Positions 34,280 to 55,016 of a DNA stretch of 55,157 bases are shown here, piece by piece (position 1 is the first letter of the stretch; each line of letters starts with the position of its first letter). The notes beneath the pieces were generated by a model. The model saw only the letters and a program-made list of their open reading frames with translations. It did not search any database and was not told the origin of the DNA. The translations under genes were made by a program, and so were the position numbers. The stretch is from Nitrospirota bacterium (GTDB taxonomy: Bacteria > Nitrospirota > Thermodesulfovibrionia > Thermodesulfovibrionales > JdFR-88): contig JACWAF010000001.1 in NCBI GenBank assembly GCA_014874185.1, forward strand, positions 1-55,157, read 5' to 3'.

Positions 34280-34298
34280 AGGTTGAGCAAACGGCTCG

Positions 34299-34338
34299 CC
34301 CCCGGGACCGGCATGAAAGCCCGGAGCCGGTCCCGGGG
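34299..34338 (+). terminator. Strong GC hairpin after the cytochrome gene
   Basis: CCCCGGGACCGGC pairs with GCCGGTCCCGGGG around a 13-base loop, 20 bases after the cytochrome stop. No U-tract follows, so it may end transcription with Rho help or protect the mRNA. Confidence 0.5.
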
Positions 34339-34460
34339 CGGGGTTCTGGGATTATGCAGGGAGTTTGACACCGTAAAATGGAATGTGTTTAAATGATTGT
34401 TGAGTGTATACCCCATGGCTAAAAACTTGCTGCGGGGATTATCAACATTCAGTGAAGGCC

Positions 34461-34718: not shown

Positions 34719-34764
34719 TTTATTTTCCCGATACTTCAAAAAATCATTCAGGAGGTTTTTTGCT

Positions 34765-35286: not shown

Positions 35287-35296
35287 GAGGTCCGGA

Positions 35297-36013: not shown

Positions 36014-36030
36014 TTTGAATCTCAGAGAAT

Positions 36031-36067
36031 TCCCCCGGGTGAAAGGGTAATCCTTCCTCCCGGGGGA
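36031..36067 (+). terminator. Hairpin after ccdA
   Basis: TCCCCCGGG pairs with CCCGGGGGA across a 19-base loop, 18 bases after the ccdA stop. It probably ends the island operon; no U-run follows. Confidence 0.55.
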
Positions 36068-36108
36068 CCTATACAACGATCGACGAAGACTAGCTTATTT
36101 CTTGCCGA

Positions 36109-36127
36109 CTGCTACAATTCTGCTACA
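36109..36127 (+). repeat. 19-bp repeat CTGCTACAATTCTGCTACA, right copy
   Basis: Identical to 30734-30752 and in the same orientation. It ends 53 bases before the intact tRNA-Leu. Confidence 0.75.
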
Positions 36128-36143
36128 ATAGAGGCTGCTTTTG

Positions 36144-36173
36144 TTGACGGGATCTCAAAAAATCCTTTAAAAT
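36144..36173 (+). promoter_or_regulatory. Promoter of tRNA-Leu within the island's right edge
   Basis: TTGACG (36144-36149) and TAAAAT (36168-36173), spaced 18 bases, end seven bases before the tRNA. This is a good sigma-70 match and would replace the promoter left behind at 30620-30649. Confidence 0.7.
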
Positions 36174-36180
36174 CAACCAT

Positions 36181-36264
36181 GCCGGAGTGGCGGAACTGGC
36201 AGACGCAAGGGACTTAAAATCCCTCGCCCGCGAGGGTGTACGGGTTCGACTCCCGTCTCCGGCA
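36181..36264 (+). tRNA. tRNA-Leu (UAA)
   Basis: An 84-nt cloverleaf: acceptor arms GCCGGAG and CTCCGGC, anticodon stem AGGGA/TCCCT with loop CTTAAAA (anticodon TAA), long variable arm with CGCCCGCGAGGGTG, T arm CGGGTTCGACTCCCG. Its first 25 bases form the right attachment core of the island. CCA is not encoded. Confidence 0.97.
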
Positions 36265-36342
36265 TCTTTCAATTGCCTTTCCACTCTGCAGCCCCATGAG
36301 GTATAATATTCCTCATACCCTGTTAGGGAGAGAGTTTTTCTG

Positions 36343-39316: not shown

Positions 39317-40228
39317 TTATTGTTCGGCCACAAAAGCCTGCATCCGGTTGTTTTCCCGGTCTGCTATGAAGATCTCGCCATTGTTGTTGAAGCATATGCC
39401 GGAGGGATAATAGAGCTGGCCCTCCTTCCACCCCATCTTCAATTGGGTGGCGCTTATGGAGCCGTCGGCGCCCAGGGTAACGATAGACGCGCCGTTTCTG
39501 TCGATAAGGTAAACCGTGCCTTTGGAGTCTGTCTGTATGCCGGCCGGGAAACTCATATAACCGGCAAGGCTCTTGGTAAACGGCGTGAACTCCTTGGCGT
39601 CCTTTCCGGCCTTGTAGACCATCTTGCGGACTCCGTCCACGATCAGGATATCACCGTTCTTGCTTACGGTTATATCCGAAATGAAGCCGTTGTCCTTGGT
39701 GTCCTGAGCGAAGGGTATTTGCCGTATCATCCTGCCCTGCGGGTCCAGGACGACGACCTGGCTGTTGAATACGTCGACAAGATAGAGGTTCCCGGCCGAG
39801 TCGATATCGAAGCTGTCCGGGATGACCTCGCCCCCTACCCCGGTGGGCTGCACGGTACTGACATAATTGCCGTTTGCGTCCAGGTGCACTATCTTATGCG
39901 ACTTGCCGTCCAGGACGAAGATGTCGCCATTGGGGCCTTTTCTGGCCCTCAGGGGATAGGATATCTGGCTGGACTTGATCTCCTTGCCTCCGGTCATGGT
40001 GCCGTTTACAAGTGCAAACGTGAGCAGGCGGCCGTTGCCCGAATCGGAAAGCAGGACGCTATGGTCGTCGCAGCTTACCGCCTCCGGCCTGTTTATCGGG
40101 TTGCCTTTCCCATCGGCATAGACGGCCACGACAAATTTAAGCTTCACCCCGGCCGCGGCCACGGGTCTGACTGGCAGGGCCAGGGAAAGGGCCGCAAAAA
40201 GCGAAGCCGCTATAATAAGGTTCTTCAT
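39317..40228 (-). CDS. Secreted NHL-repeat beta-propeller protein
   Basis: The 303-aa product has a signal peptide (NLIIAASLFAALSLALPVRPVAA) and about six NHL repeats, for example PNGDIFVLDGKSHKIVHLDANGNYV, SAGNLYLVDVFNSQVVVLDPQGRMI and NNGEIFIADRENNRMQAFV. It should fold as a periplasmic or surface propeller. ACAGGAGGTGATG precedes the ATG. It is the last gene of the cytochrome operon, 16 bases after the 16-heme gene. A second NHL protein heads the OmcS-like pair; such proteins recur in electron-transfer clusters, where assembly or protein contacts are likely roles. Confidence 0.85.
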   Translation of the reverse strand: MKNLIIAASLFAALSLALPVRPVAAAGVKLKFVVAVYADGKGNPINRPEAVSCDDHSVLLSDSGNGRLLTFALVNGTMTGGKEIKSSQISYPLRARKGPNGDIFVLDGKSHKIVHLDANGNYVSTVQPTGVGGEVIPDSFDIDSAGNLYLVDVFNSQVVVLDPQGRMIRQIPFAQDTKDNGFISDITVSKNGDILIVDGVRKMVYKAGKDAKEFTPFTKSLAGYMSFPAGIQTDSKGTVYLIDRNGASIVTLGADGSISATQLKMGWKEGQLYYPSGICFNNNGEIFIADRENNRMQAFVAEQ

Positions 40229-40244
40229 ATCATCACCTCCTGTA

Positions 40245-41507
40245 CTATGTGTGGCACTGCACGCAAAGTTCCGTAACCGTGGGGAACGGTATCATCCTCT
40301 TGTAATCCGTCCCGTGCGCCCGGTGGCAAGAGAGGCATGTGAGCGTCTTGTTCGGGTTCCTGGGGTCCTTGTATTTCACCCCTACAGGATGCGTTGCGTG
40401 CTTCTGGCTGTCATGACACTTGCCGCAGAGGTCGATCGGCGACGCCGCGTTCAGCAGGAAACTGTTGTTCGAGGAATGCGGCTCATGGCAAGCCGTGCAA
40501 TTGCCTTCCGCCACCGGCGGATGCTTTGTCTGCGACCTCTGCTGTCTTTTAATGGTATCCGCATGGCATCTTCCGCAGAGCTTTATCTTGGGGGCCTTCA
40601 GCAGGCCCTTTTCCGGCGAGGCGTGCGGGTTATGGCAGCTCAGGCAGCCGTCTTTCCTTAAAAACGGCCAGTGCACCTGCGTTTTGGCGAGAGTGGTGTT
40701 TATCATGTCGTTATGGCAGCCCTTGCAGAGGTCGAAGACGGGGCTCCTCAGGGCAAGCGGGGTCTTCGAGTCCGGGCCCTGATGGCACTGCGTGCACATC
40801 CTGCTGGCCACCGGCGGGTGGACGTTGTTATACAGCATGCCCTTCTGGTCGGAGCCGTGCGGGTTGTGGCACATCACGCAATTAGCTTCGCCGACGGGCA
40901 TATTCATATGCTGGCTCAGGAATATGGGATTGCTTGTCTGATGGCATGTCTTGCAAAGCCCCGGCACTTCGTCCTTGAGAAGGTGCGTGGACTTCATGGA
41001 CGCATGCGGGTCGTGGCAGTTGAGACAGCTGTCCTGCACCGGGGGATGCTTGACCTTGCTGGAGGCCACCTGCTGGGCGATGTCCTTGTGGCAAGCGAAG
41101 CAGACCTCGTTTCCCGCCCTGAGGAGATGAAAGGGCTGGTTGGATGCGTGGGGGTCATGGCAGTTCACGCACTTGCCCTCCACCACCACCTTATGGGTGC
41201 TCTTAGCGCCATCGGGGATTATGTCCGGGTGGCAGGTAAAGCATATTTTATTTTCCGGGGCCGCCAGGTTCTTCCCGTAATTGGACGTGTGCGGGCTATG
41301 GCAGCCCACGCACTCGCCTATCTTCACCGGCGTATGCACGTATTGCATCTTCAGCTTGTCCTGAAAATCCGAATGGCACTCCAGGCATATCTTCCCCCTG
41401 GCACCGGGCTTCAGTCTGAACTTGTTCTCATCCGAGCGGGCCTTGGCACCGAACGTGACGGCCAGGACCACCAGAAACAGCATCAATATCCTGTATTTAT
41501 GTTTCAT
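40245..41507 (-). CDS. Sixteen-heme c-type cytochrome
   Basis: From MKHKYRILML (41507, with GAGAGGTGCAGG upstream) the product has 420 aa and a signal peptide (ILMLFLVVLAVTFGAKA). I count 16 CXXCH sites, from CLECH to CVQCH, about one per 25 residues. They alternate in a regular pattern: a CxxCHxPHxS site followed 18-25 residues later by an LCxxCHxD site, with HPPV/HTPV histidines between. This is the doubled-CXXCH (cytochrome c3/NrfB-like) architecture. It is probably periplasmic or outer-membrane associated and pairs with the 26-heme protein encoded 11 bases upstream. Confidence 0.93.
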   Translation of the reverse strand: MKHKYRILMLFLVVLAVTFGAKARSDENKFRLKPGARGKICLECHSDFQDKLKMQYVHTPVKIGECVGCHSPHTSNYGKNLAAPENKICFTCHPDIIPDGAKSTHKVVVEGKCVNCHDPHASNQPFHLLRAGNEVCFACHKDIAQQVASSKVKHPPVQDSCLNCHDPHASMKSTHLLKDEVPGLCKTCHQTSNPIFLSQHMNMPVGEANCVMCHNPHGSDQKGMLYNNVHPPVASRMCTQCHQGPDSKTPLALRSPVFDLCKGCHNDMINTTLAKTQVHWPFLRKDGCLSCHNPHASPEKGLLKAPKIKLCGRCHADTIKRQQRSQTKHPPVAEGNCTACHEPHSSNNSFLLNAASPIDLCGKCHDSQKHATHPVGVKYKDPRNPNKTLTCLSCHRAHGTDYKRMIPFPTVTELCVQCHT

Positions 41508-41518
41508 ACCTGCACCTC

Positions 41519-43498
41519 TCATTGCTTGTCCACCAGGTGGCATTCATCGCATTCCCTCCCTGCAAACGGGGGATGAACATTCTTCTTGAACAGCTTGGGA
41601 TCCTTCGATGCGTGCGGGTCATGGCAGGAAACACAGTCCATCACGGAAGGATCTATGTTCAAATGGGCCTTGCTGAAATTGGGGTCTTTCAGGTCATGGC
41701 ATTGCCCGCAGAGTGCGCTTGTGGGCGGCTGCACCAGTAACTTCCGCTCGGCTGAACTGTGCGGCTTGTGGCATATCAGACAGTCCATAGCGGCCGCGGG
41801 GTGAGCCGTACCGGTTTTCATCCTTTCCTTTATGTCCTTGTGGCAGGTTAAACACAGGTCTGGGCTCTGGGCCAGCAGGAGCTTGTCCAGCTTGGCCTTG
41901 TGCGGGTTGTGGCACTTTGTGCACTCCCCTTCCTTTACAGGGGCATGAGCACTCTGGCCGGTCTGGAGCCCTTTGGCCATCCCGGTATGGCAGGTAAGGC
42001 AGAGCTTCTCCTGCCCGGCAACGAGGATGCCTTTCTTATTCGAGGCGTGCGGGTCGTGGCAGGTCAGGCACATCCCTTCCTTGAAAGGAGGATGGGTCAC
42101 TCCGGCCGCTTCCGGCTTCATCATATCCGCATGGCAGTTGGCGCACAGCTTGGAGCCGGACGCCTTCAGGAGCTTGGGCTCGTCAGAGGAATGCAGGTTA
42201 TGGCACACATTGCATTGCGAGTCCGCCACGGGCTTGTGAACGTAAGTCTTCGAGAACTTCGCTTCCATGTCCGGGTGGCATGTAAAGCAGACCTTATCCA
42301 TCCTGTCCCTGAACATCCCCGGGAGATTTGAGCCGTGCGGGTCGTGGCACGTGGTGCACATCTTCTGGGCAAACGGCGGATGGACGATTTTTTTGGTCTC
42401 CTTCTCCTTGGCGTGACAGCTCAGGCAGAGGTCGCCTTTTGAGGCTACCAACAAATCCTTGTGCTTGGCCGCATGCGGCATATGGCAGGTCAGGCAGCCT
42501 TTGCCGCCGGCCAGCGCCTTGTGCGCGAATGCCACCGGGGAGCCCTTCTCCTTATGGCACATTATGCAGAGCTGGTTGCCGCTCTTGACAAAAAGACGCG
42601 GGTTCTCCGAGGCGTGCGGGTTATGGCACAAAGTGCAATTGCCGGCCTTGAACGGGGCGTGTTCCACGGTGCCGCCGTTTTCGAGCTGCGCCTTGTCATG
42701 GCATTGGAAGCAGATGGCGCTTCCGTTTTTGGCCAACTCGAATGGCTTGGGAGAATCAGCGGGCTTATGGCACATATTGCAGGTCCCCGATTCCACCGGA
42801 TTGTGGACGCTTGTCTTCAGCAGCTTGGGCTGCTCGGAAGAATGCGGGTTATGGCAGATCACGCAGGACTTGGCCTGCTCCACCGGGTAGCCGCCATGGG
42901 CCTTCCTGAAACCCGAAGAGCCCTTGTCATGGCAGCTCAGGCAAAGGGGGACCTCCGCTTTTACGAGAAGATTTTTCTGGTCAGAGGCATGGGCCAGGTG
43001 ACAGGCCCCGCAGCCCTGTGTCTGAATTACCTTGTGCACGTCTTTCTTCTCGAAGGCGCTCTTGTCATGACACTTAAAGCAGACGTTGTTTCCATCTGAC
43101 TTGAGAAGATTGGCGCTGTTCGAGGCGTGCGGGTCGTGGCACGTGGTGCATTGGCCCTGCTGGAGGGCGCTGTGGATATTGGGCTTGTCCATGCCGATCT
43201 TCTGCCTGGAGTGGCAGGAATAACAGAGCTGGTTGCCCTCCCCCTTAAGCAGGAGCTTGGGCACAAGCCCGTGCCTCAAATGGCACTTCTCGCAGTTCTT
43301 CTCCTTGACCACCTCGTGCACCGTCTTCATGGACATGTACTTGTCGGCGAATTTCTTGTGGCAGTCCAGGCAGCTCTTGGCGGCGAATTTCATCCCGGCC
43401 ATTGACGTCCCGGAATTCGCAAGGAAGAGGACGGTGCCGGACAATAGAACAAACAAAACCGAAACTGCTAGCTTCCGCTTCCCATTCTTAAAAAACAT
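41519..43498 (-). CDS. Twenty-six-heme c-type cytochrome
   Basis: From MFFKNGKRKLAVSVLF (43498, AGGAGAAGGC upstream) the product has 659 aa with a signal peptide (VSVLFVLLSGTVLFLANSGTSMAG). I count 26 CXXCH sites, CLDCH first and CDECH last, about one heme per 25 residues. Repeats of about 50 residues carry two hemes each: VHxPVxxGxCxxCHNPHASxxPxLLKxxGxxLCxxCHxx. This density suggests an extended, wire-like heme chain. No lipobox or membrane segment is seen beyond the signal. Order in the operon (barrel, lipoproteins, chaperone, then both cytochromes) suggests a role in outer-membrane electron conduction. Confidence 0.93.
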   Translation of the reverse strand: MFFKNGKRKLAVSVLFVLLSGTVLFLANSGTSMAGMKFAAKSCLDCHKKFADKYMSMKTVHEVVKEKNCEKCHLRHGLVPKLLLKGEGNQLCYSCHSRQKIGMDKPNIHSALQQGQCTTCHDPHASNSANLLKSDGNNVCFKCHDKSAFEKKDVHKVIQTQGCGACHLAHASDQKNLLVKAEVPLCLSCHDKGSSGFRKAHGGYPVEQAKSCVICHNPHSSEQPKLLKTSVHNPVESGTCNMCHKPADSPKPFELAKNGSAICFQCHDKAQLENGGTVEHAPFKAGNCTLCHNPHASENPRLFVKSGNQLCIMCHKEKGSPVAFAHKALAGGKGCLTCHMPHAAKHKDLLVASKGDLCLSCHAKEKETKKIVHPPFAQKMCTTCHDPHGSNLPGMFRDRMDKVCFTCHPDMEAKFSKTYVHKPVADSQCNVCHNLHSSDEPKLLKASGSKLCANCHADMMKPEAAGVTHPPFKEGMCLTCHDPHASNKKGILVAGQEKLCLTCHTGMAKGLQTGQSAHAPVKEGECTKCHNPHKAKLDKLLLAQSPDLCLTCHKDIKERMKTGTAHPAAAMDCLICHKPHSSAERKLLVQPPTSALCGQCHDLKDPNFSKAHLNIDPSVMDCVSCHDPHASKDPKLFKKNVHPPFAGRECDECHLVDKQ

Positions 43499-43525
43499 GC
43501 CTTCTCCTAATTGTGTTGATCTCAT

Positions 43526-45337
43526 TTAATCCGTTAAATAGATTTTTACTTTGTAGGCCTTCCGGAGCTTTGCGGCCCAGTCATTGATGTCGGCATTGAG
43601 CTTCTCGCCATATATCTTTTTTGAGATTTCGTCCTTCACGGTATACAGGGGCGCGGGTTCGGGCGGGACCACGTCTTTTACATAGAGGACGTATACAGCC
43701 CCGTCCTCAGCGTTCATAAGCCTGTAATCGCCGGCCTTCGCCCCGCCGAGGCTCTTGCGCATTTTGGACGCCATTTGGGTAAGGGGTATGGCGTTCTGGG
43801 TGTCAATCTCGCCCTCCTTCTTCGAACGACCGTCCGCGTTTGTCTTCATCCATTCGAAATCCGTGCCTTTTACGAGTTTCCGCATCGCTGTTTCAGCCGA
43901 TTTTCCGTCCTTGAAGGCGATGCTCTTTACTCGCATCCTCTCTGGAGAGGTATACTCGCCCTTGTGTTTTTCGTAATAAGCATTCAGGTCGGCATCGGTC
44001 ACCTTCACGTCCGGCGCTATAACCTTACCGACAAATAGCCCAAACAGCAGCGAGTCAGTGTATTCTTTCATTTTCCGCTTGTATTCCGGCGATTTTTCAA
44101 GCCCCCTGGCAATGGCCTCTTTCAGGAAGAGTTTCCTATAGAGCATCTCATCCAGCACCTGGGGTTTTTGCTCGTTTACCTCATGGTTTTTCAATGCGTC
44201 CACCACGCCGTGGTAAAACTTTGCCTTGACCATGGACGAGAACTCGGCTACAGTGACGGGCTTTTCACCCTTTATAAAGACCAACCGGCGTTTGTCTTTC
44301 AGGCATCTCTTAAAGCCCTTCTCGCCATACTTGTCGTAATTCAGGCTGGCATAAAGCTTCTTGTCCAGCTTGACATATTTTTTGATGAGTTCTTTCTTAT
44401 AGTTGGCTATCGACCGATGCCTGGCATTTTGATAGGCGGTGTCCCCGGCTTCCTTCATCTTCGCCTCGTCCACCTTCTCCGGCACCTGCTTCTTGTCGAC
44501 CCTGAAGAAGGCGAACCCAAGCCCCACCCGGACGGGCTTTTTGTTTACTACTCCGATCTTCGCCTTTGCAACAGCCGAGGCTATTTCCGGCGACATGTCC
44601 CCTTTGGTCAGGAAATCCTTGTCTATGCCGCCCTGCGCCGTCCCGTTTTCAATATGGCTTTGCACTATCTTTGCGAAATCGACGCCGCTCTTGATCTCCT
44701 TCTCCACTCTTTTTTCGTCTTCGACTTTGGACAGGAGTATGGTGGTCAGCTTATATTGCATGGCGTTCTGCTTGTAGAGCTTATCCACATCCGCCTTTTT
44801 TGCCTTCAGCCCCTTCTCATGCTGGTCTACGAGCATCTGGCGCAGGGAGCCGTGCGAATAGGCCGTTATGAGATTCTTGACTTCCTTCATATCCGTAAGG
44901 CCCATGGTTTCGGCTTCGGAAACAAAGAGTTTTACATTTATCAAGCGGCCGAGCATCTCCATATAGTCTTTTTTCCCGGCCGATTTGGTCTCTCCCATTT
45001 CCTGTTTCCCGGCCGATTTGGTCTGCTCCACTTCCTGGTGCGAAGAGGCAAGGGCCTGGGTCAGGTCCTCCAGGGTTATAGGTTCTTTATTCACAACGGC
45101 CAGGGGGAATTTCTGGAACAGGGGAGAAAAAAGAGGTATCCTGGCGTTTATATAAAGGCTGATATTGCCGTCTGCGGGCTTCCCGCCGGAAGCGCCCTTT
45201 TCCGCAGCGCCCGGCCCGGTCGAGTTGGCTACCTGGGCCGCCGCGGGCGCAGCACCCTTTTCTCCTCCGGCAAAGGCCGGAAGGGCGGCAAACGCCAGCC
45301 CTGTAATAACTGCAAGCATAAGCGCTGTCTTTCTCAC
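43526..45337 (-). CDS. SurA/PpiC-like parvulin chaperone, exported
   Basis: The 603-aa product has a signal peptide (TALMLAVITGLAFAALPAFA), a SurA-N-like helical region (about 70-170; PLAVVNKEPITLEDLTQAL, LINVKLFVSEAETMGL) and two parvulin-type domains, near 190-265 (QYKLTTILLSKVEDEKRVEKEIKSG) and 430-560 (YTSPERMRVKSIAFKDGKSAETAMRKL). The doubled helical plus isomerase layout suggests a periplasmic chaperone for the barrel or the cytochromes. A TKSAGKQEMGETKSAGKKD stretch near 92-112 reflects a short tandem duplication in the DNA (44975-45030). Its start overlaps the upstream lipoprotein gene by four bases. Confidence 0.85.
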   Translation of the reverse strand: MRKTALMLAVITGLAFAALPAFAGGEKGAAPAAAQVANSTGPGAAEKGASGGKPADGNISLYINARIPLFSPLFQKFPLAVVNKEPITLEDLTQALASSHQEVEQTKSAGKQEMGETKSAGKKDYMEMLGRLINVKLFVSEAETMGLTDMKEVKNLITAYSHGSLRQMLVDQHEKGLKAKKADVDKLYKQNAMQYKLTTILLSKVEDEKRVEKEIKSGVDFAKIVQSHIENGTAQGGIDKDFLTKGDMSPEIASAVAKAKIGVVNKKPVRVGLGFAFFRVDKKQVPEKVDEAKMKEAGDTAYQNARHRSIANYKKELIKKYVKLDKKLYASLNYDKYGEKGFKRCLKDKRRLVFIKGEKPVTVAEFSSMVKAKFYHGVVDALKNHEVNEQKPQVLDEMLYRKLFLKEAIARGLEKSPEYKRKMKEYTDSLLFGLFVGKVIAPDVKVTDADLNAYYEKHKGEYTSPERMRVKSIAFKDGKSAETAMRKLVKGTDFEWMKTNADGRSKKEGEIDTQNAIPLTQMASKMRKSLGGAKAGDYRLMNAEDGAVYVLYVKDVVPPEPAPLYTVKDEISKKIYGEKLNADINDWAAKLRKAYKVKIYLTD

Positions 45338-46455
45338 TTTGTGTTTCTCCCGTTGCTTTTTTTGGTTTTCAGTTTTATCTTCATCATCTTGACCACAGCC
45401 TGAGCCATCCGGTCAGCCATCACCCCGGCCGTGCTGACCCTTCCCCGGTCGAAGAAGAAGACGCCGTCGTCGCCCCTGTTGTAACTGTCGGACGCCCAGA
45501 CTACTTCCATGCTCTTTTTTTCGATTGCGTTCACGAAGAACTCCACTACAGGATTGCCAGCCGGGCCCGTCGCGTCCTGGTATTGGCTTACGTAGCCGAT
45601 TATTACGAGGTCCGCGTTAAGGTTGTTGAATACGGTCTCCGCGTTTGGGATTGAAAGCCCGCCCTCCATTATGACCCTGTAATCCAGGAGGCCCTCCCTC
45701 ACCATGCCGGGCTCAACAACCGAAAACCCCGCCTTCCGCAATGCGTCTACGAAGTGAAGGGCCATCAGCTCGCCCGCATTCTTGCGCTCACTCCTGTTCA
45801 AGAAAGGTACAACGGCAATCCGGTACGCATGATCAGAGTCAAGGATGGGCGAGCGGTAGTGAATCTTGGGGCTGAACTTTCCATATGTTTTCACCGGCCG
45901 GGCCTCTCCTTTTTGAAGATAGCCCGCAAGTGATCCCGCTATTTTCCCGAACGCCCTTTTTTCCAGCCCAGGCAGGTTGTCGATAATGCCGAGGCCGAGG
46001 ATGCCTGGGTTGTCGTCCCCTGCCATCCCGGCGTCCTCTATCCAGAGTATCCGCGGATTATCTCCAGTGGAGACCAGCCGGCAGACGACGGACAGCCTTG
46101 GCGGGTTGTACTCGTTTATAAGCTCAATCGAGGTGATAAGCACTCCCCCTGTGCCCGTTTCAGCCTTGAAGGCCTTGGCCCTGCCGGCATCGATCCCTCC
46201 TATATAGCGAACGCGGTGCTCCGTCATGAACTTGTCCAGGTCCCGATCGTCAAGCACTTTTATCCCTCTGCTCTTTAAAGCGGATATCAAATCCATTCTT
46301 AGCTTGTTCAGATGAACGGGCTCGCCGCTCAGGTTTTCTATCGGGTAGACCGCGATCTTCAATCCCTGGGGGCCGGGGGCAGCGCTCTTTTGTTCCTGTC
46401 TTGCCGCCGCACATCCGTAAAGGAACAGAAAGCCGGCAAAAAGGAGGGAGGTCAT
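45334..46455 (-). CDS. Lipoprotein with two CsgG/LpoB-like domains
   Basis: From ATG 46455 (AGG just upstream, one base after the previous stop) the product has 373 aa. MTSLLFAGFLFLYGCAA is a lipoprotein signal. Two similar alpha/beta domains follow: LKIAVYPIENLSGEPVHLNKLRMDLISALKSRGIKVLDDRDLDKFM... and YRIAVVPFLNRSERKNAGELMALHFVDALRKAGFSVVEPGMVREGL..., each in the style of the CsgG/LpoB/GNA1162 group. These families form outer-membrane secretion pores or regulatory lipoproteins. The frame is open ten codons further upstream, overlapping the neighbour. Function here is inferred only from location. Confidence 0.75.
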   Translation of the reverse strand: MTSLLFAGFLFLYGCAAARQEQKSAAPGPQGLKIAVYPIENLSGEPVHLNKLRMDLISALKSRGIKVLDDRDLDKFMTEHRVRYIGGIDAGRAKAFKAETGTGGVLITSIELINEYNPPRLSVVCRLVSTGDNPRILWIEDAGMAGDDNPGILGLGIIDNLPGLEKRAFGKIAGSLAGYLQKGEARPVKTYGKFSPKIHYRSPILDSDHAYRIAVVPFLNRSERKNAGELMALHFVDALRKAGFSVVEPGMVREGLLDYRVIMEGGLSIPNAETVFNNLNADLVIIGYVSQYQDATGPAGNPVVEFFVNAIEKKSMEVVWASDSYNRGDDGVFFFDRGRVSTAGVMADRMAQAVVKMMKIKLKTKKSNGRNTK

Positions 46456-46456
46456 C

Positions 46457-47041
46457 TTACCTAAAGAGCTTGTTGATAAGTTCATCGACAGCGGCTTCGG
46501 TTACTCTGTCCATTGGCTCCCCGCCCCCGCCCAGGAGACGGTCTTTAAGGGTAACCCCTCCTTTGGTAGACTCAGCCGACCAGATTATCCTCCCCGATTC
46601 GGGTTCTATCATCTGAAGACTAAGGGAGATTACATTCGAGGAGCTGGTGCCGGACCTGATTTCGCCATATTCCCTGATAACGCCCGTAACGACCGCATTG
46701 GCATGGACAATGCCAGCAAATTTCTTTACCTCCTCCGCCGAGGGGGCAGTGGGGTTCACCATGCCGGACCTCGATATCCCCCGGACCACCTCGCCATTGG
46801 GAACAACGTAGACGCCCCCGGTGGACAGAAGCATTGTCATGAAGACATCGCGCACCCTGTCGGCCGAGCTCATGTTCCCCGAAAGGTTCTCAAAAGGCAG
46901 TACGGCGACTGTTTTTACCGCGCCGAAATCCATGTTCTGGTCCCTGTAAACCCCACGCCCCACACCGCCGCAGCCGGCCAGAAGGAGCATAAGAACAGAC
47001 AGGACAAGGCGGATAAAAATCGAATTACGCTTGAAAAACAT
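46457..47041 (-). CDS. Lipoprotein with one CsgG/LpoB/GNA1162-like domain
   Basis: From ATG 47041 (AAAGGAAAC upstream) the product has 194 aa with a lipobox LLLAGC. The mature part VKTVAVLPFENLSGNMSSADRVRDVFMTMLLSTGGVYVVPNGEVVRGI..., NAVVTGVIREYGEIRSGTSSSNVISLSLQMIEPESGRIIWSAE follows the GNA1162/CsgG pattern. It lies between the barrel gene and a second lipoprotein with two such domains, so three copies of the fold are encoded side by side. A curli-like secretion pore or a lipoprotein partner for the barrel are both possible. Confidence 0.78.
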   Translation of the reverse strand: MFFKRNSIFIRLVLSVLMLLLAGCGGVGRGVYRDQNMDFGAVKTVAVLPFENLSGNMSSADRVRDVFMTMLLSTGGVYVVPNGEVVRGISRSGMVNPTAPSAEEVKKFAGIVHANAVVTGVIREYGEIRSGTSSSNVISLSLQMIEPESGRIIWSAESTKGGVTLKDRLLGGGGEPMDRVTEAAVDELINKLFR

Positions 47042-47115
47042 ATGTTTCCTTTTTCCTGGATTAAGGGCCTGTCTAATATAGCACATGTACATACCCTCTA
47101 TCAATCTCTCTCATC

Positions 47116-49275
47116 TCAGAAAGTTTTCCTCAGACCCAGCGTGTAGCTCTCTGAATGGCTGACCTGGAGGTCGGAATCCGTGCTGAACCTGGCATAGGCG
47201 AAATCCAGGTATGTGCGGTTCAGGATATTCCACGAGACGGACGGGCTCAACATGCTGTTCTTGGTATTATTAAGAGAGTCCAGGTTCTGGCTGTAAGTGA
47301 AATTGAACTGGACGGCCCCGCCGGGGAAGGGCGACCAGTTAAGGCCATAGCCCTGAAGGGTCTCGGCCTTTCTTTCCGAAGCCTCCACGATCGCGTAGGA
47401 GGTAAAAATATAAAGGGTGTCAAACGGGCGATATGAGGCGTTGGCGTCAAACCGGCTTGCATTGGTGCTGATACCGGAGCCCGATGATTTTGTAAAACTG
47501 TAATCTGTTCCGAGCGCAAGTGTCCTATGTGGCGAAGCGGATACGCCGAAAAGGAAGCTCACATTCTCTTCCATGCTTCCATATTCATTTAAATTTGCGC
47601 TGTAGCCCGCGGACTGGACCAGGCTTACGCCTTGATATAACTGGGCGTTGTTGGTCAGGTATAGGCTGTTGCCCGCGGTAAACCTGCCTTTTTGTTCCGT
47701 GAGCTGTCCGCTGTATATCAGGCTCTCATTCAAGGTCCTGAGCGGCACGGCCCTGAGCCCGGCCGAATACGTGAGGGCGTTGTTTGTGAAACTGGGGTTG
47801 TAAGTGTATTCGTGGCCCACACTGCCCGTTACGGAGAATATCCTGTTCAGAACATAGTGTGTTGAATATGCATTTACCATGTCATACCTGAATATATTGT
47901 CCGACTCGTTCAAGGTGAACATGAAATTGTACTCGGAATGGGGTGTCAGGATAGTGCTTATGCTCAAATTGTAGAGGTTCGAAATCCTGGTGACCGAGTT
48001 TTTCGCGTGGGAAGCCGCCACCTGGCTGAATGCCTGCATCTCGGTCACGAATATATCCGGATACAGATTGGCCCCCGGGATATTCGGCGCAAGGGGGCTC
48101 ACCACCACCTTTATGGCCCTGGCCTTCACGTCCGGGAATTTTATATCGAACCGGTATCCGTTCTGATACGGACCGAAGGCGGCCTGAGAAACGGTTGCCC
48201 ATTGGCTCCATGCAGCCGTAGGCTGAGTGGGGTCGTCGTTGGTGGTATATATGCTCCAGGCGAAATAGCCGTAGATCTGGCTGGGCAGGTTCCTGTCCAC
48301 CCATATGATGACCTCGTTTACATCGGTAGGGTTCTGCAGGTCCAGGCCGATATTTCTGGGCAGGTTCGTGTTCGGTCCCACGGGTGGCAACCCTATATTC
48401 ACGGTGGTAGGAGCGGTAATATTGCCGTCTATAAGCCCCCCCAGAGAGGTGAGCGCCCCCAGGGTGGGTGTGTCGCTGGCCGCATACAGGCCGCTGGTCG
48501 GGAATAACTGAAGCGAAAACTCACCAGCCCCTCCGGAAGACATCTGCGTGTTGTCGAAAGTAAAGATATACCCGCTGCTCACGTTGACCCTGTTGAAAAA
48601 AGTGGCGGAGTATGTGCCCCTTCCCGAAACCGTCAGATCATTCGTCTTTATCCCGCTCAGTTTGTCTTCCGAGCTGGTGTAGTCGGTAAAGAGGTCCAGG
48701 TCGAGGCCCCTGATCTGTCTGTAAAAAACGCCCATGGAGACGCGGTTAGTGGCTATATTGATCGATTTTTTGCTCTCGTCGTAGTTTCGCATCTTGTCGA
48801 AGGTCAGGTTGAAGGTAGGCAGGTCTATCGGCTTCCAGCCCAAAATCCCGTGGTAATCCTCGTTTATCTGCGCCTCGCTCCCAGAGCTTTTGGTCTCATA
48901 ACGGTTGTACCCAAGTCCGTAATTGTAAAGAGCCGAAGTCCCCTGAATATCCAGATGCGGGTTCAGCATCCGGGAATTTGAACTGGACTCCGTACCGTTG
49001 CTCTTGATTTTTGACGTATTATATTCAAATGCGGACCCGGCGGTGAACCTTATATTCGGAAAGAGCAGCAGGTTGGCATTAAGCGAATAGAGCTGGTCCA
49101 GCGTATTTATGTGCGATTTGGTTGTTTCGCCGGTCGTTTTGTCCCTGCTTGTTGTATCAAAAATATTGTAGTTCAATTCCGCGCTGCCGCTCAGGAGCCC
49201 CATTCCGTAAGCCGCCGGTGCGATAAAAAAGGCGCACAAAAAAAAAATCCAGGCCCTAACGCACCAGCGCATCAC
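47116..49275 (-). CDS. Outer-membrane beta-barrel with discoidin-like insert
   Basis: The 719-aa product has a signal peptide (AWIFFLCAFFIAPAAYG) and ends in Phe after alternating hydrophobic residues (YTLGLRKTF), the outer-membrane assembly signal. Residues 25-270 and 430-719 are rich in amphipathic strands with aromatic girdle residues (YNYGLGYNRYETKSSG, FVTSYAIVEASER-like). In between, about 300-430 form a soluble domain (NIGLDLQNPTDVNEVIIWVDRN... IKFPDVKARAIKVVVSPL) resembling an F5/8 discoidin fold. It is the best candidate for the porin sheath of a porin-cytochrome conduit. Its start overlaps the upstream propeller gene stop. Confidence 0.8.
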   Translation of the reverse strand: MMRWCVRAWIFFLCAFFIAPAAYGMGLLSGSAELNYNIFDTTSRDKTTGETTKSHINTLDQLYSLNANLLLFPNIRFTAGSAFEYNTSKIKSNGTESSSNSRMLNPHLDIQGTSALYNYGLGYNRYETKSSGSEAQINEDYHGILGWKPIDLPTFNLTFDKMRNYDESKKSINIATNRVSMGVFYRQIRGLDLDLFTDYTSSEDKLSGIKTNDLTVSGRGTYSATFFNRVNVSSGYIFTFDNTQMSSGGAGEFSLQLFPTSGLYAASDTPTLGALTSLGGLIDGNITAPTTVNIGLPPVGPNTNLPRNIGLDLQNPTDVNEVIIWVDRNLPSQIYGYFAWSIYTTNDDPTQPTAAWSQWATVSQAAFGPYQNGYRFDIKFPDVKARAIKVVVSPLAPNIPGANLYPDIFVTEMQAFSQVAASHAKNSVTRISNLYNLSISTILTPHSEYNFMFTLNESDNIFRYDMVNAYSTHYVLNRIFSVTGSVGHEYTYNPSFTNNALTYSAGLRAVPLRTLNESLIYSGQLTEQKGRFTAGNSLYLTNNAQLYQGVSLVQSAGYSANLNEYGSMEENVSFLFGVSASPHRTLALGTDYSFTKSSGSGISTNASRFDANASYRPFDTLYIFTSYAIVEASERKAETLQGYGLNWSPFPGGAVQFNFTYSQNLDSLNNTKNSMLSPSVSWNILNRTYLDFAYARFSTDSDLQVSHSESYTLGLRKTF

Positions 49276-50675
49276 CTCTCACCCATCAGCACAATCCAAT
49301 ACGGGGCGGACCCCACGTCAAATTCCCCGATCTCCTGCTTACCTATAAGGTTGTTTACAACCACGCTGTGCCCGTCCTCCGATAGCGAATAGATCGCGTT
49401 CTCCTCGCCGTCTATCGCGATGAAGTCAGCCGGCACCCCGGTGTCCACATAATCGACCGGCAGAAGGGAAAACGGGTTGTATATTTCTATAGACCCGCTG
49501 CCTTTTTTCCCCAGGTAGATGAGGTCGGTAATCGGGTCCACTTTCAGAAAACTGGCCCCCATGCCCACCTTTATCCGGTTCAGGACGCCGAACGTGGAGG
49601 TGTCCATCACCGTCATGTACGGGCTCATGTCGTATATCAGATAAAGCCTGTCCCCGCGCGAACTGAACTGGGCCCTTATAGGCCCGGCCTCGGTGAAAAT
49701 AGTGGTCACCAGGGCCTTGTTGGCGATGTCTATCACGGAGACCGAGTTGGAAAACCTGTTCAGTACGTAAGCCCTGAGGCCCGTTCTGTCCATCAGTATC
49801 CAGTGCGGGTCCTTGCCTACGTTTATCCTTGCGGTCTCGATGAGCTGGGCGGGGTCCATTATGCTCACCGTGTCTGAGCCTGGATTAGCGGAAAGCAGCG
49901 TCTTGCCGTCCGGAGTAAGCGCCAGCTCACTGGGGCTGTCTCCGGGCCTCAGTTTTATCCTGTTGATGATTTCCTGCTCTTTCAGGTCTATAATGTCCAC
50001 TTCGTCCTCGCCGGAGACCGCCGCATAGAGCCTCCTGGCCTGCTGGTCAAGCGCAAGCCCTCTCGGGCCCCTGCCAAGCGCTATTATCCCCACCGGCTCC
50101 TTTGCCGTCTTGTCGAAGACGGTAAGGTCGTTCGAGCCGTAATCGGAGACATATCCCACTACCCCGGCAAGCGGCCTTGGCGGCGGCGAAATGACAAAGA
50201 AAGGCGAGAAATTCACTTCATTTTTTATGGAGGCGGAGTACCTGAGGTCCATCGTGAACAGGCTGGCCTTCTTCCTTTCCACCTTGAAGGGGAAAGCGCT
50301 GAGTGTGGGCCCCTTAGGGAAAAGCAGAGTGGCCCTGCCTTCCTCCTCCTTGAGGAAGGCGTCTTTTACGCCTACGTCGAAGCCGGTATAATTGCCCGGC
50401 GGGAGCTTGCCCTGCGCAAACAGGCGCTCTCTCCCCGGCCCGTAACCTTTCAGTTCGGTATAGGCCAGCTCCAGCGGATGGCGCGTCCCGTCATCTCTCA
50501 CCGCGGAGACCGAGTTGATCACCAGTGTAAGCCTGCTTGCATTCTGGGGAAGCGGCTTCAAATAAAGCAGGACCTCTCCATCCTGATCGAGGGGCGGCCT
50601 TATAACGGCCTGCCTTGCGGCAGAACACGCAGAGAGGATGAAAAAGGATAGCATAACAAGAAAAAGGCGCCTCAA
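49272..50675 (-). CDS. YVTN beta-propeller lipoprotein
   Basis: The first gene of the long electron-transfer operon. A TTG at 50675 is preceded by AGGAGG and gives MRRLFLVMLSFFILSACS, a tight lipoprotein signal, for 467 aa; the ATG at 50693 is an alternative adding MLAGGF but would place that Shine-Dalgarno inside the gene. A DUF4382-like N-terminal domain (about 25-160; VLLYLKPLPQNASRLTLVINSVSAVRDDG) precedes a seven-bladed YVTN propeller (about 170-467; SNDLTVFDKTAKEPVGIIALGRGPRGLAL, SDTVSIMDPAQL, NSVSVIDIANKALVTTI). It is probably anchored to the outer membrane. Confidence 0.82.
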   Translation of the reverse strand: MRRLFLVMLSFFILSACSAARQAVIRPPLDQDGEVLLYLKPLPQNASRLTLVINSVSAVRDDGTRHPLELAYTELKGYGPGRERLFAQGKLPPGNYTGFDVGVKDAFLKEEEGRATLLFPKGPTLSAFPFKVERKKASLFTMDLRYSASIKNEVNFSPFFVISPPPRPLAGVVGYVSDYGSNDLTVFDKTAKEPVGIIALGRGPRGLALDQQARRLYAAVSGEDEVDIIDLKEQEIINRIKLRPGDSPSELALTPDGKTLLSANPGSDTVSIMDPAQLIETARINVGKDPHWILMDRTGLRAYVLNRFSNSVSVIDIANKALVTTIFTEAGPIRAQFSSRGDRLYLIYDMSPYMTVMDTSTFGVLNRIKVGMGASFLKVDPITDLIYLGKKGSGSIEIYNPFSLLPVDYVDTGVPADFIAIDGEENAIYSLSEDGHSVVVNNLIGKQEIGEFDVGSAPYWIVLMGER

Positions 50676-50704
50676 AAAACCTCCTGCAAGCATAAACGTT
50701 GTAT

Positions 50705-50710
50705 ATTATA
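50705..50710 (-). promoter_or_regulatory. Candidate -10 element of the electron-transfer operon
   Basis: On the minus strand TATAAT lies 30 bases before the TTG start of the propeller lipoprotein. The -35 region (CTACAT at 17-18 bases) is poor, which suggests activator control. A TGTGA...TCACA pair surrounds the -35 region, but its 19-base spacing does not fit Crp. Confidence 0.45.
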
Positions 50711-50837
50711 TTCCAACTGTGAATAAAATATGTAGTTTGAATCACAAAACCAGTTAGCGTCGCGTTCCTTAAATTCTATGCTGTTTTTTCCCCTTTCATC
50801 CCCCCTTGGATTAAGTGGGGACAGGGGGGGTTAGGAA

Positions 50838-50931
50838 GATTCCCGGCCTTGCCCCAAAAAGCCCTCGGCTTTTCGGGGACCCCGGCGCGTGGAGCCTGCC
50901 CCGTACCTGATACGGGGCTTGCGGGAATGAC
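50838..50931 (+). repeat. Dispersed CCCCGTACCTGATACGGG palindrome, copy 3
   Basis: GATTCCCGG, an AAAAGCCCTCGGCTTTT hairpin, then GCCTGCCCCGTACCTGATACGGGG and GGGAATGAC. It shares its core and GGAATGAC end with copies at 14975 and 18399. It fills most of the 50694-51029 gap; no gene is visible there. Confidence 0.8.
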
Positions 50932-50990
50932 AATTTTGGAAGTTTTACCGAGTTTATGAGCTAGCCGGACAAGCATATTTTTTATAGTTG

Positions 50991-51015
50991 GAAGGCCGGG
51001 CGCAGCCCGGCCCTT
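50991..51015 (-). terminator. Hairpin after the second OmcS-like gene
   Basis: GAAGGCCGGGC and GCCCGGCCCTTC pair around a three-base loop, 15 bases beyond the stop. A run of A/T follows on the minus strand (AACTATAAAAAATAT) but no clear U tract. Confidence 0.55.
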
Positions 51016-51029
51016 CAGTCCTCAGTGCT

Positions 51030-52346
51030 TCAGTCCTTCAAATGGCATCTATTGCAGAGAGACCTCTGATAACTGGCGTAAGCGCTTGCCGGCCTGCCGT
51101 AAAAAGTGGCCTGTATCTCGGCCTGCGTGCGCCCCATGGCGTATTCTCCGTATGCGCCCTTTCCCTGCGCGTCGGTGCCCGGATACGCCCCGGCCACCGT
51201 GAGGAAGGTGGAGTCCATGTTCCACCTGGTCATGCTGTCCCAGCCGGAGGCGTGCGCCCTGTGGCATGTGAGGCACATCACCTTGTCGCTGGTAGTAGGC
51301 CCCGCTGTGGAATTGGTCAAAAGCGCCAGTTGGGAGATGTTCGTAGAGGCATTAGTCTGGAACGGGACCATTGACGTGTAGGACGTGGCGCTCGTCCCCG
51401 TGAAGTTCCCTGATTTCAGGTAGGCGTTGTAATTGCTGACCTGCAGGGATGTGAGCTGCTGCCCCGTAGGGTGCTCGTTGTTCCCGAACGCGCTGTGCAC
51501 GTCCAGGTGGCAGTTGGCGCACCAGAAGCTGACGTCCTTCCCGTAGGCCACCCTGGTGTCCGAAAGGGACTCGGCCCTGTTATAGGTTTGCGGGGCCACG
51601 GCAAAAAAGGAGTTGTAGCTGAAGGCATAAGACCCGCTCAGAGAGGCGGGCTGATATCCTATGCCAGCCAGAAGCCTGTATGTCCCAACCGCACAAGTGG
51701 AAGTGGGCTGTGCCCCGTAGGAGCCGGAGTTGCAGATGGGAAGCACAGCGGTACCCAGGCTGGTGGTAACTATTGTTGCGCTCGTTCCTACAATCCTGTA
51801 TTTCCCGTGCGGGTCGTGACAGCTTAGGCAGGTCAGGTGGGAGGCGGGATAGCTGCCCCCGGGAGACTTGGTTATCGTCGTGTCCGCCGTGAAGCCGTAA
51901 TCGGCCGCAATGATGCTGTGGCCGTGATTTTCGCCGTTGCTGAACCCCGGAGCTCCATATGAAGTGGTCCAGGAATAACTCTTCCGCAGCCATGCAAAGT
52001 CCCCGCCAGGGGTCATCTGCGTGGGCGGCTGGCCGTTTGGAGGGACCGGGTATGTTGCGATGTGGTACCCGTCAGGCCCTGAACTGCCTGCGGTGGCGTG
52101 GCAGTTCAGGCACGTGGAGCCCTGGTCGCTGCCAATCAGAAGATAATTATGGCCGTTGAACTGCGCGGCCCCGGCGGTGGTCGTTACCGCCTGATTGTTA
52201 ACGGAGTTGTGCATCGTGTGGCAGCCCTCGCAGTAGGCAACGCCTCCGTCATGGTAGGCATATGAGCTGCCCGGCATGCCGAGCAGATAAAATCCTGAGA
52301 GTAAAAGACAAAACCAGGCTGCTTCCAAATGCCGGTTTTTTTTCAT
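51030..52346 (-). CDS. OmcS-like six-heme cytochrome (second copy)
   Basis: The 438-aa product has a signal peptide ending SSYA and six CXXCH sites: CEGCH, CLNCH, CLSCH, CANCH, CLTCH, CNRCH. Framework matches Geobacter OmcS as I remember it: YHDGGVAYCEGCHTMHNS at the mature start, QMTPGGDFAWL, CLSCHDPHGKYR, YRLLAGIGYQPASLSGSYAF, the TYNRAESLSDTRVAYG stretch, WCANCHLDVHSAF, CLTCHRAHASGWDSMTRWN and the end YQRSLCNRCHLKD. OmcS polymerises into extracellular heme filaments. Spacing to the first copy is 79 bases with a hairpin between; GGGAGCAGGG precedes the ATG. Two extra Cys (PICNSG, STCAVG) may form a disulfide. Confidence 0.93.
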   Translation of the reverse strand: MKKNRHLEAAWFCLLLSGFYLLGMPGSSYAYHDGGVAYCEGCHTMHNSVNNQAVTTTAGAAQFNGHNYLLIGSDQGSTCLNCHATAGSSGPDGYHIATYPVPPNGQPPTQMTPGGDFAWLRKSYSWTTSYGAPGFSNGENHGHSIIAADYGFTADTTITKSPGGSYPASHLTCLSCHDPHGKYRIVGTSATIVTTSLGTAVLPICNSGSYGAQPTSTCAVGTYRLLAGIGYQPASLSGSYAFSYNSFFAVAPQTYNRAESLSDTRVAYGKDVSFWCANCHLDVHSAFGNNEHPTGQQLTSLQVSNYNAYLKSGNFTGTSATSYTSMVPFQTNASTNISQLALLTNSTAGPTTSDKVMCLTCHRAHASGWDSMTRWNMDSTFLTVAGAYPGTDAQGKGAYGEYAMGRTQAEIQATFYGRPASAYASYQRSLCNRCHLKD

Positions 52347-52369
52347 CCCTGCTCCCGGTTTTTTTATTT

Positions 52370-52397
52370 GGAAAGGCCGGCCTGGGCCGGCCTTTCC
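52370..52397 (-). terminator. Perfect hairpin between the two OmcS-like genes
   Basis: GGAAAGGCCGGCC and GGCCGGCCTTTCC pair fully around a two-base loop. No U tract follows, so it could reduce or stabilise transcript rather than fully end it, setting the ratio of the two filament proteins. A small AGCC-TTTC-GGCTTTTT hairpin directly after the first gene's stop supports partial termination. Confidence 0.6.
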
Positions 52398-52425
52398 TTA
52401 TGCTGCAAAAAGCCGAAAGGCTAAA

Positions 52426-53778
52426 TTAGTCTTTCGTGTGGCACTTGTTGCACATCTGCCTCTGATAGCTGGCAAACCTGGTTGCCGGCCTTTCATAATA
52501 GGCCCTCTGAATCTGGGCTGAGGTCATGCCCTCGCTGGCCGACTTTCCATAAGTGGTATCAGTGGAATAGTCGGGATAAGCGCCGTTTTCGGTCAGGTAC
52601 TCGGAATTGGGGTTCCACCTTACGCCCTTGAACCACGCGGACGCGTGCGCCCTGTGGCAGCTAAGGCACATGACAACCTCGGTGCCGCCCGTAGCCGGGC
52701 CAACTTTGCTGGCGCTGCCATTGTCGCCTGCTTCGGCTGCCAGCGCGGCAATGTTAGCCGTGTTATAGGTGATGTTCTCCTCGTAAGGGACCAGCGAAGA
52801 GTAGGAAGTCGCCTGTGTGCCGGTGAGGTCGCCGGACTTCACATAGGCATTGTAGCCTGCTTCCAGCGTCCAGCCCTGTGCGCCGGTCTGATTGAGCTCG
52901 GCGCCGGCATTGTCGCCAGCCGGGTGCTCGTGCGGAGCGTCAGGAGCGCCCACGTTCTGCATCTGCCCATGGCAGTTGGCGCACCACTCGGACATGCCGC
53001 CGCCGTACGCAACCCTGGTGTCTCCATTGCTCTCACCTATGTTGTAGGTGCTGGGGGCGACTGCGAAGGGAGAAGGATTGGTAAACTGCGCAGCCGGGGT
53101 GCCGCTGACGGAGTCAGGCAGGTAATTTACACCGGCCAGAAGCCTGTAGACGCCAACCGCGTTGCCGAAGCCGTCCGGCACCGCGCCGTAAGAGCCGGAA
53201 GAGATGATCGGGCCCAGTGCGCTGCCTATTGTGGGCGCGCCCATCGTGAGCGTGCCGCCGTTCAGATACTGCCTGTATTTGCCGTGCGGGTCGTGGCAGG
53301 AAGAGCAATAGAGATTCCCTGCCGGATAAGAGCCGCCGGGAGACGTTGTATACCTGGCATCGCCGGTAAGGCCGAAGTCGGCCGCAATGATGTCATGCCC
53401 GTGATCTACGCCGTTAATCTCGCCGGCGCCGCCTGCAACCTGGAGCCAGCCGAAGTCGCCGCCCGGGGTCATCTGAACAGGCAATGACGTCGCGGTCATG
53501 CCGGGGGTCATGATGTGATAGCCGCCCGGGTTGGCGTTGGCATGGCAGTTCAGGCAAGTGGAGCTCTGGTCGCTGCCCTTCAGAAGATAGACCTGGCCGT
53601 TGAACTGTACGGCGCCTGCGGTGGTGGTTACGGCCGCGTCATTTATCGAGTTGTGCATCGTGTGGCAGCCTTCGCAGTAGGCCACGCCGCCGTCGTGATA
53701 GGCGAAGGCCATGCTGCTCACGCCGAGGGTTATCATGGCCACTGCCAGGATAACCGTCATGAGTTTCATTCCTTTCAT
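52426..53778 (-). CDS. OmcS-like six-heme cytochrome (first copy)
   Basis: Three ATGs follow AAGGAG; the third (53778) has six-base spacing and gives 450 aa, with signal MKGMKLMTVILAVAMITLG and cleavage after AFA. Six heme sites: CEGCH, CLNCH, CSSCH, CANCH, CLSCH, CNKCH. It matches OmcS closely in framework: YHDGGVAYCEGCHTMHNS, VQMTPGGDFGWL, CSSCHDPHGKYR, STYNIGESNGDTRVAYGGGMSEWCANCH, KSGDLTGTQATSYSSLVPYEE, CLSCHRAHASA and YQRQMCNKCHTKD at the end. It is closer to OmcS than the second copy (for example MSEWCANCH, GDLTGTQA). Heme-ligand histidines appear preserved, so filament formation is likely. Confidence 0.94.
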   Translation of the reverse strand: MKGMKLMTVILAVAMITLGVSSMAFAYHDGGVAYCEGCHTMHNSINDAAVTTTAGAVQFNGQVYLLKGSDQSSTCLNCHANANPGGYHIMTPGMTATSLPVQMTPGGDFGWLQVAGGAGEINGVDHGHDIIAADFGLTGDARYTTSPGGSYPAGNLYCSSCHDPHGKYRQYLNGGTLTMGAPTIGSALGPIISSGSYGAVPDGFGNAVGVYRLLAGVNYLPDSVSGTPAAQFTNPSPFAVAPSTYNIGESNGDTRVAYGGGMSEWCANCHGQMQNVGAPDAPHEHPAGDNAGAELNQTGAQGWTLEAGYNAYVKSGDLTGTQATSYSSLVPYEENITYNTANIAALAAEAGDNGSASKVGPATGGTEVVMCLSCHRAHASAWFKGVRWNPNSEYLTENGAYPDYSTDTTYGKSASEGMTSAQIQRAYYERPATRFASYQRQMCNKCHTKD

Positions 53779-53932
53779 CATCATCTCCTTCTGATCTGTT
53801 CCTCCGCGGATTCCCGCGAATGGATTCATTCAGCCGGTAAAAACCGGCCCTTGCTGCACGTCATTTGAGGCACTCTCGTTTCCTCTCTGATCACCTCCTT
53901 TTCAAAGCGCAAAGAGCCAAGGTAAGCGCCTA

Positions 53933-54913
53933 CTAGTTGTAGTAGACCCTGTAAACGCTCACGCCCCTGCCCGCGCTCTGGGTTATGTATAGCTTCCCGT
54001 TTGAAAAGGCCGCGTCCCTGGGCACTATCAGCCCCGCCTTGTCAAAACCCCTGTAGCCGAACTGCTGCACGAAATGGAGGCCCTTGTCGAACACCAGGAC
54101 GGCGCACTTCAGGGCGTCCGTAACATATATATATCCCTTGCCGTCCACGGCTATACCAGAGGCGACGTTGAACTTGCCAGGGGAGCTTCCGCGCACACCG
54201 AAGCCGGTCAGCTTCCCGTCCGGCGAGAGCCTGAACGCGCTGAACAGGGTGGCTATCGTGAAGAAGATATTGCCCTCCCTGTCCACGCAGAGAGAGCGGA
54301 TGTCGTTGTCGCCCTCCTCCTTTTTGGAAAACTTCAACATGCCCCCGATCTTCCACAGCTTATCCAGGGAGCCGTTCTCATTGACAACCGCCACCTGGAG
54401 CCGCTCGTAATCGGCCAGATAGATATGCCCGCCGCTGAAAAAGACCGCAGCGGGATGGAAATCCGGGCCAAGCCCTGGCAGCTTTATGGCGGAGAGGAAA
54501 TCCCCCCTGTAATCCAGCTTCACCAGGTTGAACTTCTGGCCGTCCGTGTAGACAATGGCCAGAAGATTGCCATCCTTGTCCAGGGCCAGGCTGGTTATAT
54601 GGCCGTACTTTTTTGTCAGATTCCAGTCCTCGTCCCCGAACTTGTAGACCTCCATGCCCGCATCGTTGAAAACCCGGACGTCCCCGTTTGATGTCACGTA
54701 GACCTCGTGCCTGGATTCGTCCACTGCCAGGTTGGGCCAGCTTGACGGGACCGCCCCGGTGAAATTTGAAAGGTTATACATATACCTGGCCTCAATCTCC
54801 GCAAAGGCCGGAGCGGGACTCACCTGCAAGGCCCCAAGCGCCAATAGCAGGCAGACCGCCACAACTCCCAACCTGCCCGGCATGCCTGTACCCATAAGTT
54901 TCATAGCTCTCAT
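53933..54913 (-). CDS. Secreted NHL-repeat protein upstream of the OmcS-like pair
   Basis: The product of about 326 aa (ATG 54913; other in-frame starts are TTG 54931 and ATG 54904) has a signal peptide (LGVVAVCLLLALGALQVSPAPAFA) and about five to six NHL-type blades: YGHITSLALDKDGNLLAIVYTDGQKFNLVKLDYRGDF, DIRSLCVDREGNIFF, GKFNVASGIAVDGKGYIYVTDALKCAVLVFDKG, and a final AAFSNGKLYITQSAGRGVSVYRVYY. It is probably cotranscribed with the first OmcS-like gene, 154 bases downstream. From memory, NHL genes also accompany omcS/omcT in Geobacter, so a role in filament assembly or export is plausible. Confidence 0.82.
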   Translation of the reverse strand: MRAMKLMGTGMPGRLGVVAVCLLLALGALQVSPAPAFAEIEARYMYNLSNFTGAVPSSWPNLAVDESRHEVYVTSNGDVRVFNDAGMEVYKFGDEDWNLTKKYGHITSLALDKDGNLLAIVYTDGQKFNLVKLDYRGDFLSAIKLPGLGPDFHPAAVFFSGGHIYLADYERLQVAVVNENGSLDKLWKIGGMLKFSKKEEGDNDIRSLCVDREGNIFFTIATLFSAFRLSPDGKLTGFGVRGSSPGKFNVASGIAVDGKGYIYVTDALKCAVLVFDKGLHFVQQFGYRGFDKAGLIVPRDAAFSNGKLYITQSAGRGVSVYRVYYN

Positions 54914-55016
54914 CGATGCCCGTAAGAGCAATGAACATACCAGACTTGTAAAAAATGTAAGTAGCTGTCTTTAAAAGGTTTCGGGGCTGGCCGTGAATTC
55001 CCTGGGCGGCCTTTCC

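Follow-up and report, generated by a model that had tools for sequence, protein, structure and literature searches.

The stretch of DNA analysed here (the window) comprises 55,157 nt, positions 1 to 55,157 of contig JACWAF010000001.1 from a Nitrospirota bacterium, and carries two adjacent genes for six-heme cytochromes. The question raised by this locus is whether they encode extracellular cytochrome wires of the type built by OmcS of Geobacter sulfurreducens, and whether the organism also has the means to assemble them.

Two six-heme cytochromes of the OmcS family

Of the two genes, hexA (52426..53778, -) encodes a protein of 450 aa with the Sec signal peptide MKGMKLMTVILAVAMITLGVSSMAFA and a mature part of 424 aa starting at YHDGG; its full open frame covers 52426-53829 (-), the best start, an ATG at 53778, being located 6 nt behind AAGGAG. 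The product of hexB (51030..52346, -) has 438 aa, likewise with a Sec signal peptide, and its mature form of 408 aa begins with the same YHDGG, a shared start pointed out in the first-pass annotation and seen in both translations. There are exactly six CXXCH motifs in each protein, at mature positions 9, 49, 132, 240, 345 and 417 in HexA and 9, 49, 143, 246, 328 and 401 in HexB, compared with 9, 47, 140, 239, 328 and 400 in OmcS (mature length 407); both thus hold six motifs with OmcS spacing in a single mature protein of ~400 residues. These positions, the mature lengths and the phmmer comparison below bear out the initial description of two adjacent six-heme OmcS-like genes of the same heme order and size. 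The sequence motifs listed in it are also present, with the reservation that HexB has KDVSFWCANCH and CLTCHRAHAS instead of MSEWCANCH and CLSCHRAHAS. The two proteins are 53% identical to each other.

In a phmmer search of all PDB chains, OmcS (6EF8/6NEF) was matched over the whole mature length by HexA (E 1.6e-96 over 44-467, 49% identity) and by HexB (E 7.2e-115 over 31-438, 50% identity), a sequence similarity far beyond chance. Up to E 1 no other cytochrome was found, the OmcE and OmcZ chains included, so that of the three wire proteins compared only OmcS aligns end to end; Pfam and NCBIfam gave general multiheme matches only, and in none of these three collections is a non-polymerising six-heme family closer by sequence. 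An AlphaFold model of HexA, built from 42 sequences (mean pLDDT 72), had a single PDB match in Foldseek, 6ef8_A, which is OmcS (E 1e-30), and was superposed on 6EF8_A by VIA with Z 37.1 and rmsd 3.2 over 378 of 407 residues. The OmcS fold is accordingly predicted for HexA by superposition of the model and for HexB by sequence. Confidence in the HexA monomer model is low in the N-terminal arm around His16 (residues 39-82), as would be expected if this arm docks on a neighbouring subunit. HexA and HexB therefore resemble OmcS (GSU2504; PDB 6EF8, 6NEF) in heme order and spacing, mature length (424 and 408 vs 407), predicted fold and Sec signal; they differ in being 49-50% identical to it, in standing across a 100/100 tree split from it, and in being known from their genes alone, whereas the OmcS filament has been demonstrated.

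This split was obtained in a tree of 48 proteins, in which HexA and HexB belong to a clade of 17 members, with OmcS among the other 31; the two are hence not strict orthologues of OmcS. The tandem had been compared with omcS-omcT, and this likeness proved to be positional only, since by descent the pair, lying opposite OmcS in the tree, is not omcS-omcT. The other members of the clade include hexahemes located before oscD in omcS-free Geobacter lineages (Geotalea, luticola, H2geo) and in Geomonas, Nitrospira and Anaeromyxobacter. Among the "Clade 3A" relatives (PMC12977616) nearest to the window proteins are the single hexahemes of Geotalea SG265, Geomobilimonas luticola and Geobacter H2geo; these and GSU2501/OscC share with the window pair a location immediately before the eight-gene osc block, whereas the window has two genes before oscD and the genome three more paralogues scattered elsewhere. 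HexA clusters with a paralogue from its own genome, on contig C11, and with DBS2-1 Nitrospirae (100/99). This grouping and the 53% identity speak against a recent tandem duplication as the origin of the pair, but a clade uniting HexA and HexB was not rejected on a larger quick tree (AU p 0.545). The C11 paralogue (G000:C11:8255-9763) and another on C17 (203-1669) are orphan OmcS-type hexahemes with His16, located away from osc (L124, L125), the latter adjoining what look like response-regulator genes.

The osc operon and its host

The osc genes, the OmcS companion operon, have been tied to OmcS folding and secretion (PMC13194489, PMC12977616) and correspond to GSU2500-GSU2493 according to Shen et al. 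2025, as cited in both papers. OscC is GSU2501, OscI GSU2495 and OscJ GSU2494, with roles in folding given for OscH, in secretion for OscE, OscF and OscG, and in morphology for OscD (PMC13194489); GSU2501 and the eight-gene block GSU2500-2493 are also described in PMC12977616, with 26 hemes in GSU2495.

In the window, hexA and hexB head a complete osc operon (~39317-54931, -). The first-pass annotation was right in placing both genes within 51030-53778 and in noting the tandem of hexahemes; the real unit is much larger, and the assembly operon downstream had been missed. As evidence for a filament system, this operon outweighs the tandem. A gene for an NHL-repeat beta-propeller protein (53933..54931, -) precedes the cytochromes, a position it also holds in most osc loci. 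Downstream of hexB, tightly packed on the same strand, follow homologues of OscD, a lipoprotein (LSAC) with a YncE/lactonase-like beta-propeller (49272..50693, -); OscE, predicted to be a large beta-barrel of the outer membrane into which an F5/F8-type C-like domain is inserted (47116..49275, -); OscF, a GNA1162-like lipoprotein (LAGC; 46457..47104, -); OscG, a probable lipoprotein without a Pfam match (45334..46485, -); OscH, a periplasmic SurA/PPIC-type prolyl isomerase (43526..45337, -; PF13145, E 1.6e-23); OscI, a cytochrome with 26 CXXCH (41519..43525, -); and OscJ, one with 16 CXXCH (40245..41543, -). The block is closed by a second NHL-repeat gene (39317..40228, -), conserved after oscJ. 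The genes were assigned one by one from their order, domain content and heme counts, and the order was compared with two Geobacteraceae genomes (G171, G196) and the named loci; G. sulfurreducens was not among the genomes. The ordered block hexaheme-oscD-E-F-G-H-I-J beside NHL genes is thus present, with both the 26-heme OscI and the prolyl-isomerase OscH. What is shared with the Geobacter operon (GSU2500-GSU2493) is the gene set and order, the 26 hemes of OscI and the PPIase OscH; the differences are that the proteins are 26-65% identical across loci and that the host of the window is a member of Nitrospirota.

The structure model of OscE suggests an outer-membrane-type barrel (pLDDT 90). It could not be placed in a single barrel family, as its matches in Foldseek and VIA are spread over many unrelated barrels of the outer membrane, one of them MtrB (6r2q_B, TM 0.34).

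A search of 85,000 species genomes yielded 78 loci, most of which share the osc order; it occurs in Geobacterales, Nitrospira, other Nitrospirota, Myxococcota (Anaeromyxobacter) and Acidobacteriota. In some Nitrospirota (L029, L045, L062, L075) the operon is split, with NHL-hexaheme-oscD-G on one strand and oscH-J divergent on the other. In a genome of the same family as the window genome, a strong local expansion has placed five OmcS-type hexahemes, all with His16, around one osc operon (L122; G023:C17:77500-97400).

Several structured elements were found between the genes. A perfect hairpin with a 12-bp stem separates hexA from hexB (52355..52405, -; -26.8 kcal/mol, z -5.5); no U tract follows it, and it is possibly a 3' stabiliser or an attenuator. 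Another (50980..51020, -; -21.1 kcal/mol, z -4.0) follows hexB, within the 336 nt that separate this gene from oscD. In the same hexB-oscD intergenic region, a strongly folding element at 50840-50945 (-; TCATTCCCGC...GGCCGGGAATC; -50.9 kcal/mol, z -3.4) looks like a REP/MITE-type insertion. Matches in a scan for sigma-70 promoters were no commoner than chance.

As the assembly contains no SSU rRNA, RpoB was used to place the host: in the RpoB tree it falls among Nitrospirota MAGs (86% identity, 100/100), close to Nitrospiraceae bacterium Ngb-4. The genome has dsrA and a 109-residue open frame with three CXXCH and a Cytochrome_C7 match. Among 149 sampled genomes of the order, close relatives of its OscF (at least 54% identical) occur in only eight, the window genome counted, so the system is patchy, through loss or transfer. 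Elsewhere in the window a gene for a 630-aa protein with nine CXXCH (32387-34279, +) is accompanied by genes for a redoxin (34765-35286), a CcdA/DsbD-like protein (35297-36013) and a TPR protein (36343-38439); the region 32387-38439 is possibly a second cytochrome cluster with maturation genes.

Axial histidines and the absence of His16

From the 6EF8 structure, we take His16 to be the inter-subunit ligand of OmcS. In the OmcS filament, 11 of the 12 axial histidines come from the subunit itself and one from its neighbour, on heme 5 (heme 505) (PMC6584659). In an alignment of 111 sequences the six CXXCH histidines and H2, H110, H147, H257 and H335 are invariant or nearly so, while H16 is kept in 87%; these last five and H16 are presumed to be the natural distal ligands, and the pattern among the homologues fits an inter-subunit role of His16. 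HexA and HexB retain all 12 presumed axial histidines of OmcS, His16 included. The inter-subunit histidine is consequently in place in both and, given their Sec signals as well, they would be secreted proteins for which polymerisation is possible in principle.

Among the 111 homologues His16 is the only one of the 12 ligands lost as a group: it is absent from 14, and the tree requires four changes. Of the positions conserved in members with His16, just 16, 37 and 165 set the members without it apart, and as only 37 and 165 differ besides His16, the fold seems to be kept and the intermolecular bond lost. The absence is linked to gene position. His16 is present in every one of the 68 hexahemes encoded before oscD, vs two of the nine behind the terminal NHL gene (Fisher 1.5e-8, with kinship among the sequences ignored), and it is missing as well from the products of two additional genes behind the osc operon in Geobacteraceae genomes (L121, L127). 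A paralogue in the window genome (L005; G000:C19:6761-8002, -) lacks it too: it reads CDGCHSQANQ at this site, with the remaining 11 presumed axial histidines in place, and is an orphan with no osc genes beside it.

It is conceivable, and we propose it tentatively, that one residue divides the OmcS family into two functional classes: a polymerising one, with His16 and in front of oscD, and one lacking only the inter-subunit ligand, whose genes lie behind the operon or, like that on C19, at scattered sites. A member of the latter could receive the His16 of a neighbour on its own heme 5 and could not donate one; judged from its sequence, it would be a non-polymerising donor, a filament base or a cap. 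No literature report of a position-linked loss of His16 was found, Shen 2025 lying outside the comparison.

Probable wire subunits and other readings

Taken together, HexA and HexB probably belong, as two subunits or as two alternative filaments, to an extracellular system of OmcS-type cytochrome wires that is encoded along with its own osc operon for assembly. The export route, as we infer it, would start with Sec export and periplasmic heme attachment, OscH aiding the folding of both proteins, and would lead through the OscE barrel with the help of the lipoproteins OscF/G and OscD. Polymerisation would take place outside the cell, the His16 of the N-terminal arm of one subunit ligating heme 5 of the next, and conduction would run along the resulting continuous heme chain. 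As to the charging cytochromes and the direction of electron flow, electrons would enter the wire from OscI (26 hemes), OscJ (16 hemes) and a triheme cytochrome of the PpcA-like kind.

The position of the pair outside the OmcS side of the tree counts against wires, and filament formation has been demonstrated for OmcS only, OmcT, OmcJ and GSU2501 being without demonstrated function (PMC12977616). HexB in particular occupies a position identical to that of GSU2501/OscC, a protein given as periplasmic (PMC13194489), and by analogy this placing could hold for HexB as well. It might then be an OscC-like accessory or periplasmic cytochrome, with the wire made only by HexA or a HexA-type paralogue; this seems unlikely, though it deserves attention, because HexB has the full set of ligands, His16 included, and is as near to OmcS as HexA is (50% vs 49%). 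Moreover, in many operon-bearing genomes a single hexaheme precedes oscD, always with His16, so the gene in this place may itself encode the wire subunit.

Another reading sees in both proteins outer-surface cytochromes, monomers or oligomers, that serve as terminal reductases or in interspecies contacts and have the OmcS fold without polymerising in the cell. It draws on the family members without His16, that on C19 of this very genome among them, which suggest that the fold also has uses in which no inter-subunit ligand is involved. This reading is rather improbable in view of the His16 kept by both HexA and HexB, the mere three positions that separate the members lacking it, and the completeness of the assembly operon. 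That the pair represents another filament family, of the OmcE or OmcZ type, or an unrelated six-heme enzyme is scarcely credible, OmcS being the one cytochrome returned by the phmmer search and the one Foldseek match of the HexA model.

A further point against the wire reading concerns the physiological role: even in Geobacter the need for OmcS is disputed, one report describing an OmcS-deficient strain that still reduces Fe(III) oxide (PMC11077965).

OmcS genes in Thermodesulfovibrionia, reported by FeGenie (PMC8478452, relevant passages), and the osc operon are both already published. Those passages share with the present analysis OmcS-type genes in Nitrospirota; the operon, ligands and phylogeny given here are absent from them. 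The OmcS-like pair together with a complete osc copy is therefore a good example of protein wires beyond Geobacter, though one with precedents.

Separating wire-forming from non-wire relatives of OmcS by sequence has been described as unsolved (PMC12977616). The position-linked loss of His16 offers a simple, testable sequence rule for this, and if the two-class reading is true, a single substitution distinguishes the wire members from the others. For the organism, the finding would mean a complete nanowire and assembly operon outside Geobacter, in a Nitrospirota lineage that also bears dissimilatory sulfite reductase. There, the direct passage of electrons to or from minerals or partner organisms would have a bearing on the cycling of sulfur and iron in the subsurface.
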